64,000 bases of DNA from assembly GCA_963422465.1 (NCBI GenBank), contig OY730171.1:1550001-1614000 (forward strand). Reading direction: 5' to 3'. This DNA comes from Lichina pygmaea. Taxonomy: Eukaryota; Ascomycota; Lichinomycetes; Lichinales; Lichinaceae. A program made the position numbers and the translations under genes. The notes under the pieces are model-generated. The model saw only the letters and a list, made by a program, of their open reading frames with translations, searched no databases and had not been told where the DNA came from. Positions 26,494 to 58,538 of this stretch are shown piece after piece. Each line of letters opens with the position of its first letter. The first letter of the stretch is position 1.

Positions 26494-27510
26494 TCACATG
26501 AAATCGTCCAAGAAATCCGCATCTCGGTCCTGGTTGCTCGACTGCGCCAGATTCTCCTCGGTGAACAGGTCATCGTAGGCGTGATCTCTCTGCCAGGCCT
26601 TCTCCTTCCGTTCTTTGGCGATCCTTGCTTCTTCCTTTTTCTAGAACGGTGCCACGAGCACCGAGTCAGCACGGACCCTAGCTCGCTCTGGCTCGATGGG
26701 CGGTGAAAGGAAAGTCATACCTTGTCCTGTCGCACCGCTTGCTCGCGTTTCCGCACCTGCCGGAGCCGGTCTTCCCTCTCCTGGTGCAGGTCGGGATACT
26801 TTTCAACCTTCGTCTTGTTCAGCCGGTTGACGATGGGGTTCTCCCGCTGTTTGACCAGGACCTTCTTGACCTAGACCATCATGAGTCTTCGAACTCGGGC
26901 CTCGATGGCGCGGCCATCGGATGCTTGGAGGGGCACCTTTTTGGGGTCTGTGAAGCCGACCTGGCCGACAGCCATGCTGCCATCTTTGTGTAGATTGGAC
27001 CACGGCGTGTAGATGACCGTCACGTTATCTTTCTTGTTGCCTGACGTGCCGGTCAGCATAGTGCCGTAATCTCCGGGCCTCGGCGTGATCGACCTTCGAT
27101 GGAGTTTGCCTTGGTCAATTGCGAGCAGTCGTCCAGCAGCTCTGACGGGATGTTCTCCCACGAGTCGCCCTCGTTGAGTCGGAGGTATATATGTGCGCTC
27201 GACAGCTTGTCGACGTGGAACTTTACCGGTCAACAGAGGAGCGAGCGGTGCCGGTGACGAACCCGCCAGCGGAGAGACATACCCTGGATACCAGTCAGAA
27301 GGTCGAGAGCAAAGCTTTTGGCTCCATGACGAATGATACCAGACATCCTCTTCAAGCCCGTACTTGATCAGTTCTTCATCTGGTGCGCGAGTTAGCCATC
27401 AACTTTGGCCATCTCGGGCTTGCTCAGCTCGACTTACTCTCCACCTTGTCCTTCCCGACGTACAGAAACGCAGAGGGTGATACAACGTTGGACGTGAAGT
27501 AGTACACCAT
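26494..27510 (-). CDS. JLP2: CCDC25 / Jlp2 family protein (NFACT-R domain)
   Basis: Conserved eukaryotic protein; yeast Jlp2 has no clear function, and human CCDC25 is reported as a DNA-sensing membrane protein. Exons: 27510-27438, 27379-27340, apparent 1-nt exon 27283, 27220-27094, 27040-26937, 26870-26721, 26640-26494. Total 642 nt, 213 aa (human 208). N-terminus [20 protein letters not shown] then [18 protein letters not shown]; then [20 protein letters not shown]; then [20 protein letters not shown]; a charged coiled coil with [14 protein letters not shown] and [17 protein letters not shown]-terminus [15 protein letters not shown], nearly as in human. Only inclusion of the single G at 27283 keeps VW-FHVD in frame with canonical introns on both sides. 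The alternative is a weak GTCTCT donor adding about 20 odd residues. Confidence 0.88.
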
Positions 27511-45348: not shown

Positions 45349-48300
45349 ATGTCGATATCCATAGCCGACCTCGACCAGACCGTCCGATCTTTCTACGAGG
45401 ATCGGGGCGAGTCTGTAGGTGCACCCATACTTTGTGGGATGGCCATGAGCGTCGACTCGTGATCCTGCAGGAGCTAGCTGACCTGTTCCCTTTGCCACAG
45501 CAAAAACAAGCGGAGGCCACCTTGAACCAGGTATGATCCGACGGGCGATCGGGCCGATCTTAGTCTACGTCAGGCCTGCTGACTTGGCCCGTAGTTCAAA
45601 GAGAATCCGGACGCATGGCTCATGGTCGACAAGATCTTGCAAGATGCTACATTTCCACAGACCAAGTGTACGTCAACCGCCATCGGTTGTGTGGCAAGGC
45701 AGCCAGTTCGCTGACTCTGCTGTCGTCACAGACCTTGGACTGCAGGTGCTGGACAGCGTCATCATGACGCGATGGAAGGTGCTGCCACGGGAGCAATGTC
45801 AAGGTGCGACGCAGGTCGTGTGTCGGAGCGCGTGGTGCGCGACTTTCTCATACGCTTCTAGGCATCCGAAACTTTGTCGTCAACTACATCATCGAGATAT
45901 CGACTTCCGAGGAGAGTCTCAAGACGAATCGGACGCTGCTCAACAAGCTGAACCTGGTGTTGGTCTCGATCCTGAAGCAAGAATGGCCGCACAACTGGCC
46001 GACCTTCGTCAACGAGATCATAACGTCGTGCCGCGCCAGCCTTTCCATCTGCGAGAACAACATGGCCGTCCTCAGGCTACTGTCGGAGGAGGTCTTCGAC
46101 TATTCGGCCGATCAGATGACGACGACCAAGACCAAGAACCTCAAGTCGACCATGTGCGCAGAGTTCTCTGCCATTTTCCAGCTCTGCTCCCAGATCCTGA
46201 GCGAGGCGACCCAGCCGACCCTCATCAGGGCGACGTTGGAGACCTTGCTCCGTTTTCTGAACTGGATCCCCTTGGGATACATATTCGAGACGGATATCAT
46301 CAACACCCTGCGTTCGAGGTTCCTCGAGGTCGCCGAGTTCAGGAACATCACCCTGAAGTGCTTGACCGAGATCGGAGGGCTGCAGATCGGACAGCAATAT
46401 ACGTACATTGACAAGCTGGTGGAGATGTTCACGTCGGTCTTGACCACCATCGCGAACATCGTGCCGATATCCGTCGACCTGAGAGCGACCTATCCGACCA
46501 GCAACCCCAGGGACCAGGAGTTTGTCCTCAACCTCGCCCTCTTCCTGAGCAACTTCTTTGGCATGCATCTGCAGGTGAGTCTAGAGCCTTGGAGAGGACG
46601 GGACAAGGCCAGCGCGATCGAAGGATTCTGACATGCCTGCTCACGGCGACGGGTAGCTTGTCGAGAACCTTCCGAACCCCGACTTCATGATCCACGGTCA
46701 CTACTACCTCATTCGAATCAGCCAGATCGATGACCGCGAGATCTTCAAGATCTGCCTCGAGTACTGGACGAAGCTGGTATCGGAGCTCTTCGACGAGATG
46801 CAGAACGTCCCAGCCGGCGAAATCAACCAGCTCGTCAACATGGGCGTCAGCGGCCTCTCCAACAGCGGCGCCCACCATCCCAGCCTCATGGAGAACTACC
46901 CGCTGCGGAAGCACAAGTACGCGCAGGTGCTCTCCAACCTCCGCGTCGTCATGATCGAGAAGATGGTGCGGCCCGAAGAGGTCCTGATCGTAGAGAACGA
47001 CGAGGGCGAGATTGTGCGGGAGTTCGTCAAGGAGAGCGACACGATCCAGCTTTACAAGACTACCAGGGAATGCCTCGTCTACCTGACCCATCTGGACGTG
47101 GTCGACACCGAGGGCATCATGTCGGACAAGCTCTCCAAGCAGATGAACGGGTCCGAGTGGTCGTGGGCGAACTGCAACACCCTTTGCTGGGCCATCGGTT
47201 CCATTTCGGGGGCGATGAACGAAGAGACGGAGAAGCGCTTCCTCGTCACCGTCATCAAAGATCTGCTGGGCCTGACCGAGATGAAGCGTGGCAAGGACAA
47301 CAAGGCCGTTGTCGCCAGCAACATCATGTACATTGTCGGCCAGTACCCCCGCTTCCTCAAGGCGCACTGGAAGTTCTTGAAGACGGTGGTGAACAAGCTG
47401 TTCGAGTTCATGCACGAAACGCACGAGGGTAGGTCTCTCGCACGAGCCATGGAAGTGGTGCACGTCTTCCACGCTCGGGCGCTGACCGTCTCTCTTCCTC
47501 TCCTTTCCTCTAGGCGTACAGGATATGGCGTGCGATACGTTCATCAAAATCGCCAATAAATGCAAGCGGCACTTCGTCGTGCTACAACCGGGCGAGACGG
47601 AGCCGTTCATCGACGAGATCGTTCGCAACCTGCAGAAGATAACCCTTGATCTGTCCCCACAACAGGTGCACACCTTCTACGAGGCCTGCGGCCACATGAT
47701 CAGCGCTCAAGGGCAAAGGAGCCCGCAAGAGAGGCTGATCCAGGACCTGATGTCCTTACCGAATCAAGCCGTGAGTGCCTTCCCCACCAAGCGATGTGTG
47801 CCGCTCCAGCGCACTTTCGACATTGCTCAACTGTGCCGGCCACTAGTGGGAGCGCATCATATCGGACGCGAGTCGAGACCCTTCCACCCTAGAAGATGCC
47901 GATCGGATCAAGATTATCGGCAACATCATGAAGACGAACGTCGCGGCCTGTAGCTCCGTCGGGAGCTATTTCTATTCTCAGATCGGTCGCATCTATCTCG
48001 ATATGCTCTCCATGTACAGAGCGACGAGCCAGATGATCTCGGAAGCCGTTGCCCGAGACGGTGAGTGCCGTTCGTGACCGATGCGATGAGTAGATGCAGC
48101 GACTGAAAGTCTCCTCGCAGGCCCCGTTGCCACCATGATGCCCAAAGTTCGCGGCATGCGTACGGTGAAGAAGGAGATTCTCAAGCTCATCGACACGTAC
48201 GTTCAAAAGGCAGACGACGTCGAGATGATCAACGGAACCATGGTACCGCCGCTCTTGGACGCCGTCCTGGTCGACTACAGCCGGAACCTACCGGATGCGC

Positions 48301-49419
48301 GAGACGCCGAGGTGCTCAACGTCATCTCGACCATCACCAGCAAGCTTCATGTTCGTTGCACCCCTCACGCGACGAGACTCGTGGCCGGGTCTCGTCCTCC
48401 ACCGTCCGTTGCTCACACCCCGATCTCGCTGACTTGGCGGCAGGGCTTGATGGAGGACAAGGTTCCGATGATCATGGAGAACGTGTTCGAGTGCACCCTC
48501 ATGATGATCAACAAGGACTTTTCCGAGTACCCGGAACATCGTGTCGCCTTCTTCAAGCTGCTCCGGGCCATCAATTTCCACTGCTTCCCGGGTGAGCTTC
48601 ACCTCCACCTTCATGCAGGAAGGGCCTCGGCGTCTCTAACGATCCCCTAGCGCTGCTGAGGCTCGACACCCGACAATTCAAGTTTGTGATCGATGCCTGC
48701 ATGTGGGCGAGTAAACATGACAACCGCGAGGTGGAAAATGCAGGCCTCGGCATGTGTATCGAGCTGATGGACAACATGATCGGCACCCAGCCCGAAACGT
48801 CCAATGCGTTCTTCGAGCAGTTCTTCATTCACATCCTTCAGGACGTCTTTTTCGTGCTTACTGACTCCGACCACAAGGCCGGTGAGTCCGGGAACGATTC
48901 GGACGGGGGCGATTCGAAGGTCAACCCTGCTGACTCTGAGGCTCAGGGTTCAAGTCGCAGTCGATGTTGCTGGCCAGGATGTTCTACTACGTCGAGACCG
49001 GCAAGATTCGGGGGCCGATCTACCCGGCCGACAAGACCCCGGCAGGGACCAGCAACAAGGCCTTTCTCCAGGAATTCGTCAGCACTCTCCTGCAGAACGC
49101 CTTTCCGAACCTGCAGACGTACGTTGGCGCTCTGGCCGGTCGCTCCGCGGGCATGAAATACTGACGTGGTAGTTGCAGGGCGCAAATCCGGACGTTCGTC
49201 GAGGGGCTCTTCAACCTAAACGAGGATCTGTCTCGATTCAAAGTTCATCTGCGCGACTTCCTCATCCAGCTCAAGGAGTTTGGCGGGGACAACGCCGAGC
49301 TGTACGCCGAAGAACGCGAACAGGCTCAACGGAGCGCCAGAGATGCAGAGCGCGAGCGTGCCATGCGGGTCGGAGGCCTGCTCAAGCCGGCCGAGCTCGA
49401 CCAGGATGAAGAGCTGTGA
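45349..49419 (+). CDS. CRM1: Exportin-1 (CRM1/XPO1)
   Basis: Nuclear export receptor for leucine-rich NES cargo, working with Ran-GTP. Thirteen exons: 45349-45414, 45501-45530, 45595-45667, 45732-45803, 45862-46574, 46657-47428, 47514-47770, 47847-48060, 48121-48350, 48444-48591, 48651-48881, 48947-49118, 49179-49419 (3219 nt, 1072 aa; human 1071). Importin-beta N-terminal domain includes [24 protein letters not shown]-repeat landmarks: [125 protein letters not shown] and [18 protein letters not shown]. In the NES-groove segment [17 protein letters not shown] residue 525 is Thr, where human (C528) and S. pombe (C529) have the leptomycin-reactive Cys. The six short 5' exons are closed by 50-100 nt introns in consistent phases. 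Confidence 0.97.
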
Positions 49420-57688: not shown

Positions 57689-58538
57689 ATGTCCTCGAGG
57701 CTGGTGTTGGTGCTGGGAGATCTGTTCGTGCCGGATAGAGCTCCAGTAAGTCGTGGCTCGATGAACGCCTTTGACGGACCGTTGACGGGGCCGAACAGGA
57801 CATTCCGGCAAAGGTACAGCAACATCGCCACGGAGCCTGTTAACGGCGACGACGACAACTGCCCCCTCCATGCGCTGACCGGTGCAGCACAGTTCAAGAA
57901 GCTCCTGACGCCCGGCAAGATCGGGCAGATCCTGTGCCTCGGGAACCTCACGGACAAGGACACGTACGAGTTCCTGCGGTCGATCGCGCCCGACGTGCAG
58001 GTGGTCAAGGGCGACTTCGACGTCGAGGCGCCCAACCTGCCGCTCTCGAAGATCGTCACGCACGGCAAGCTGCGCATCGGCTTCACCCATGGCCACACCA
58101 TCGTGCCGCCCGCGGACTCGGACAGCCTGCTCATCGCGGCCAGGCAGATGGACGTCGACGTCTTCCTCTGGGGAGGCACCCACCGCTTCGAGGCCTACGA
58201 GCTCGAGGGCAAGTTCTTCGTCAACCCCGGCAGCGCCACGGGCGCGATGAGCACGGGATGGGGGTGGGAGACGGAGGAGCCGACGCCGAGCTTCGTCTTG
58301 ATGGATGTAGGGCTTCTCTTCTGGATCGTTCACGTGTTTGCTTCCGTGTGACGCCTGTACGAAGAGGCATCTGCCTGCCAAACAGAGGTACTAACAAGAG
58401 TCATCTCGATATATCTAGGTACAAGGAGACGTGCTCGTGCTCTACGTCTACCAGCTACGAAAAGACGCGAACGGGATCGAGAACGTCGGCGTCGAAAAGG
58501 TTTCGTTCCGAAAGAACGCGACGGCGGCAGTGTCATAG
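57689..58538 (+). CDS. VPS29: Retromer subunit VPS29
   Basis: Phosphoesterase-fold scaffold subunit of retromer, acting in endosome-to-Golgi recycling with VPS35/VPS26. Four exons: 57689-57745, a 15-nt exon 57799-57813 (DIPAK), 57893-58306, 58419-58538 (606 nt, 201 aa; human 182). N-terminus LVLVLGDLFVPDRAP then DIPAKFKKLLTPGKIGQILC; LGNLTDKDTYEFLRS; VVKGDFDVEAPNLPLSKIVT; GFTHGHTIVPPADSDSL; FLWGGTHRFEAYELEGKFFV; NPGSATGAMSTGW; FVLMDVQGDVLVLYVYQL. The GD, GN, GDFD and GHT-type positions of the metallophosphoesterase fold are kept in the modified retromer form (THGH, GGTH). Introns have canonical ends and phase 0. Confidence 0.96.

Follow-up and report, generated by a model that had tools for sequence, protein, structure and literature searches.

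The window analysed here is a 64,000-nt stretch of Lichina pygmaea genomic DNA (contig OY730171.1, positions 1,550,001 to 1,614,000 of the forward strand), and all coordinates below refer to it unless stated otherwise. Its minus strand carries, from 27510 to 26494, a gene that by sequence similarity is the JLP2/CCDC25 orthologue. The predicted joined protein matched PF05670 (NFACT-R_1) with 112.8 bits (cut-off 29.8) and human CCDC25 (7eof) with an E value of 2.2e-60 across residues 1-180; the alignment gave 56% identity to the human protein over 180 aa. A second NFACT-R_1 gene is present elsewhere in the genome (locus L001, G000:C3:1944345-1944647, minus strand, 108.9 bits, open frame of 663 aa), and we take it to be probably a gene for an Rqc2/NEMF-type protein. 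No relatives were confirmed in the viral contigs and prokaryote genomes scanned.

The JLP2/CCDC25 gene is modelled as seven exons, a single letter included, and six introns. Exon 1 (27438-27510, 73 nt) starts with the ATG, its open frame aligned to human CCDC25, and it is followed by an intron of 58 nt (27380-27437, GTAAGT...GGCTAAC...CAG). Exon 2 (27340-27379, 40 nt) ends in GTC TG. Beyond it lie intron A (27284-27339, 56 nt, with the weak donor GTATCA and the branch site TTCTGAC), the putative one-nucleotide exon G at 27283, which would complete the Trp codon TG|G as its third letter, and intron B (27221-27282, 62 nt, with the donor GTATGT and the branch site TGTTGAC). Exon 3 (27094-27220, 127 nt) opens with TTC CAC GTC GAC. 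The next two introns have the off-consensus donors GTCGAT (27041-27093, 53 nt) and GTGCCC (26871-26936, 66 nt), both at positions supported by the CCDC25 alignment, and exon 4 (26937-27040, 104 nt) lies between them. Exon 5 (26721-26870, 150 nt), a last intron (26641-26720, 80 nt, GTATGA...TAG) and exon 6 (26494-26640, 147 nt, stop codon included) complete the gene. By eye, the 66-nt intron, whose length is a multiple of three, has a single in-frame stop, a TAG at its extreme end. The original prediction was exact in its coordinates and letters for the end of exon 2, both introns, the lone G and the start of exon 3, and its length of 213 aa was reproduced by the joined frame.

Introns A and B are each complete GT-AG introns with a branch site of their own, and the AG of the one and the GT of the other stand a single letter, G27283, apart. 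The distance from branch site to intron end is 10 nt in intron A, counting the CAG, and 8 nt in intron B, counting the AAAG. To score the sites, a gene model was trained on 264 kb, starting from consensus seeds. It held 40 genes and 73 introns; the site models were built from the 63 introns whose two neighbouring exons each measured 40 nt or more, and the other 10 were dropped. Two strict intron finders yielded 6 and 14 introns and were set aside. Because the 63 introns stem from a consensus-seeded gene model, the site models are rough and lean towards strong donors. Donor A scored under all 63 model introns, and its pairing with the U1 5' end (-4.2 kcal/mol, as against -6.2 for donor B) was weaker than in about three quarters of them. 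Acceptor A scored at least as high as 55 of the 63 and branch site A as 42 of the 63; for intron B the figures were 43 for the donor, 25 for the branch site and only 10 for the acceptor. Weak donors may be tolerated in this gene, since GTCGAT (27093) and GTGCCC (26936) are off-consensus as well.

We enumerated all ways of joining exon 2 to exon 3 through GT-AG or GC-AG introns, with a minimum intron length of 40 nt. There were 1,793 such joins (185 with a single intron and 1,608 with two), and 492 were open (53 and 439, respectively). Against human CCDC25 the join that retains only G27283 ranked at the top of the 492, with an alignment score of 514.7, and it ran without a gap through an 11-residue block identical in the human protein. 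The runner-up (501.7) also kept the single letter but took a different donor for the first intron and inserted three residues. The highest single-intron join (488.7) took the donor GTCTGG at 27344 and lost V-W, which brought the Pfam score to 102.5 bits. The conserved frame depends on this letter: when G27283 was skipped, a stop followed after 72 codons. The original prediction held that only inclusion of this G gives the correct protein, and among GT-AG and GC-AG introns this is so; the claim fails for single 118-nt introns with GT-AA, TA-AG or AT-GT ends, which yield the same mRNA.

The joins were also ranked in the absence of homology, by splice-site scores and codon statistics trained without JLP2/CCDC25, under four intron penalties. 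At all four penalties the G27283 join was second of the 492, and by splice score alone it was second of the 439 open two-intron joins. The join ranked first had the same acceptor, the same G27283 and the same donor B, with intron A starting from 27363 and YGLEEDVW deleted. The homology-free ranking favours the one-letter exon and counts to some degree against the donor at 27339. Exon 2 had a low coding score (-1.57 per 60 nt), its own frame still being its best.

To estimate how often such a junction arises by chance, we searched 96.5 Mb of random sequence of order 2 for a branch site and acceptor matching or exceeding those of intron A, then one letter, then a donor matching or exceeding that of intron B. 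The junction occurred 2 times when both sites had to be as good and 8 times when only the summed score counted; the second figure is slightly low, as the scan passed over donors weaker by more than 4 units. With 29 places allowed in a 119-nt intron, each part having at least 45 nt, the expected number per intron was 6e-7 to 2.4e-6 at a spacing of one and 1.4e-6 to 1e-5 with spacings 0-8 pooled. On both strands of the real 264 kb a single place at a spacing of one passed the thresholds, namely the observed junction; other spacings contributed 1 place with both sites as good and 3 places by summed score. These statistics strongly favour two canonical introns over one 118-nt intron.

Taken together, these data make it very probable that G27283 is a constitutive one-nucleotide coding exon between two ordinary short U2-type introns; the splice sites in use, and G27283 as the letter retained, we infer from the sequence. 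Several other readings were weighed on the same evidence. If a single 58-nt intron ran from the donor GTCTCT at 27278 to 27221, 61 nt would be retained and 20 residues would stand between W and FHVD. The original prediction had singled out this donor as the one competing fit; its open frame and its insert of about 20 residues were borne out, but it is not the sole open single-intron option, as 53 of the 185 were open. The frame, together with the other off-consensus donors of the same gene, is what such an intron has in its favour. The inserted residues, however, look non-coding: the 61 retained letters had a coding score of -7.21 per 60 nt, under 901 of 903 coding windows, and 42 of 54 introns scored at least as high. 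GTCTCT pairs with U1 at +0.7 kcal/mol, while a GTATGT sits 4 nt upstream, and the insert breaks up the 11 residues identical in human, with an alignment score of 484.7 against 514.7 and a Pfam match of 101.9 bits, in two stretches, against 112.8. We regard this join as extremely improbable. A one-letter exon with a different main donor for intron A is very unlikely: the donor at 27363 (GTACGG) does rank top without homology at every penalty, and that at 27330 (GTCATG, with YHS inserted) is second by homology, yet both harm the block in common with CCDC25, and GTCATG pairs with U1 at just -1.5 kcal/mol.

Two further readings do away with the exon altogether and meet a common difficulty. In one, the G would come from a border of one 118-nt intron whose ends are non-canonical (TA-AG, GT-AA or AT-GT). 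All three deletions result in an identical mRNA, donor A is weak, and 12 of the 63 model introns have a length of at least 118 nt; but introns with these ends are very rare, and the internal branch site, CAG, G and GTATGT, with a chance of about 1e-6 to 1e-5 per intron, would be left unexplained. This reading we also hold to be extremely improbable. In the other, the assembly would contain a one-base error, or the gene a fresh one-base deletion, and the true gene would have at this place one GT-AG intron of 119 nt, following TGG for instance. A single added base would indeed restore the frame of one intron, but the internal junction is likewise unexplained and the frame is intact in the remainder of the gene, so that we consider it highly improbable. 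Ribosomal frameshifting or RNA editing after a single 119-nt intron was rejected as it too leaves the internal junction unexplained; no slippery heptamer was seen by eye.

Other arrangements were also set aside. The original prediction offered a true one-nucleotide exon, stepwise (recursive) splicing or a stwintron. The one-nucleotide exon was upheld at the sequence level. A stwintron does not fit, as introns A and B are both complete and lie side by side, neither interrupting a splice element of the other, nor does a zero-length recursive exon, as one G remains between CAG and GTATGT. Stepwise splicing in the plain sense, with the two introns probably removed in succession, may hold. An introner-type repeated intron was rejected when the 141-nt stretch matched only itself (E <= 1) in the organism's own genome (32.47 Mb, 8 contigs). 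A hairpin pairing CUGG with CCAG across the ends of intron A (27284-27343, minus strand) was dismissed, 45 of 200 shuffles folding as well; folding of the 141-nt stretch gave z = 0.75. On a possible origin of intron A by duplication, for which we make no claim, the 8-mer CTGGTATC occurs twice, with starts at 27342 and 27294, and no 9-mer recurs. Neither Rfam families nor tRNAs were found in the window.

Other genes and open frames were noted in passing. An exportin-1 (CRM1) gene lies at 45349-49419 on the plus strand, with 11 predicted introns and 4fgv as its best solved relative; its alignment to 4fgv breaks near residue 808-835, which points to a further intron near 48350, free of stops, that was retained as coding in the gene model. 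The Vps29 gene (57761-58538, plus strand) has 7blp and 5w8m as its best solved relatives, and 13 residues of its model have no counterpart in 7blp; they are probably part of an intron. All these structures are from Chaetomium thermophilum, and on this ground the source genome was taken to be that of a filamentous ascomycete. Outside the window, long open frames at G000:C3 about 1397251-1400500 (minus strand) and 1405631-1408468 (plus strand; loci L008-L009) start alike and have third-position GC of 0.37 and 0.39, compared with about 0.7-0.9 in many host-like frames. We presume that they resemble LINE-type elements.

How a single letter could be spliced in may be pictured as follows. Each intron would be recognised across itself, that is, by intron definition, the mode described for Pezizomycotina in the available part of one account (PMC6616335), and under intron definition exon length would have no lower limit. 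Acceptor A (CAG) and donor B (GTATGT) are probably too close for simultaneous binding. Because they stand one letter apart, one intron would probably be removed before the other. Either order of removal would give the same product, TG|G|TTC or Trp-Phe, since the remaining intron would retain complete ends. Retention of intron B brings a stop after 57 codons, of intron A after 91 and of both after 124, and the 213-aa frame was obtained only with A and B both removed and G retained. From this we would venture a wider proposal that, taken as a whole, we regard as unlikely: that JLP2 is made all-or-none, that ordered removal of A and B could be a switch, that the gene is, to the extent of our searches, a second nuclear fungal case, and that such exons are widespread and overlooked where introns are short and intron-defined. 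The switch is proposed on account of the weak donor at A and the weak acceptor at B.

If real, the exon supports the view that under intron definition exons may be of any length, however short, and it belongs to a kind easily overlooked by gene predictors and read mappers. It would lie in a gene whose conservation extends from fungi to man, and in which the argument from frame is strong. A matching cDNA would prove the join and not the one-letter exon, since the letters at the join recur at the borders of the introns; more generally, such a cDNA alone need not prove an exon of this kind when neighbouring intron borders share its letter.

One-nucleotide exons, with RNA support in Fusarium and in plants, are already known from only a few genes, namely plant APC11 and VPS55 and Fusarium CYP621A, and the comparisons that follow draw on the accessible portions of the reports cited. 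None of the literature matches listed, most subscription journals being outside the coverage, described a one-nucleotide exon in JLP2/CCDC25. Exons shorter than 3 nt are said to be prone to false calls (PMC8831610). A stwintron is defined by an internal intron that interrupts a splice element of the external one, which becomes functional only once the internal intron has been excised (PMC5639578). The JLP2 locus resembles Pezizomycotina stwintrons in that two short canonical introns leave one place in a filamentous ascomycete, but the stwintron order is fixed, whereas the JLP2 introns are both complete, with a letter left between them (PMC5639578; PMC6616335). A single exon letter between two introns is also found in ascomycete mitochondria, in Ophiostoma/Ceratocystis, although those are group II introns in mitochondrial rRNA and the JLP2 introns appear to be spliceosomal (PMC12308204). 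Also comparable are plant APC11 (PMC4674806) and VPS55 (PMC8831610), in which, as proposed here, a constitutive one-letter exon stands between two spliceosomal introns and the frame needs the letter. In APC11, unlike JLP2, the letter is A and is conserved among land plants, and the Arabidopsis exon was proved with reporter constructs in which the letter had been altered (PMC4674806); the VPS55 exon occurs in Zygnema as well (PMC9915684).

The one-nucleotide exon of the Fusarium P450 gene CYP621A, which its authors call the first in a fungal gene and suggest to be a cryptic exon rescuing a one-base loss (PMC12940212), offers a close parallel, to judge from the available part of that paper. It is backed by 20 orthologues and by RNA reads in two species, whereas the JLP2 exon is predicted from the sequence, and its G is the second letter of a Gly codon, whereas the JLP2 G would be the third letter of Trp (PMC12940212). 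In both cases the gene is nuclear, belongs to a filamentous ascomycete and has, within a conserved motif, one exon letter, a G in AGGGT, flanked by two short introns of the spliceosomal type; phase and homology require the letter (PMC12940212). If the exon is real, JLP2/CCDC25 would, as far as literature searches show, raise to two the number of nuclear fungal genes in which a one-nucleotide exon is known.
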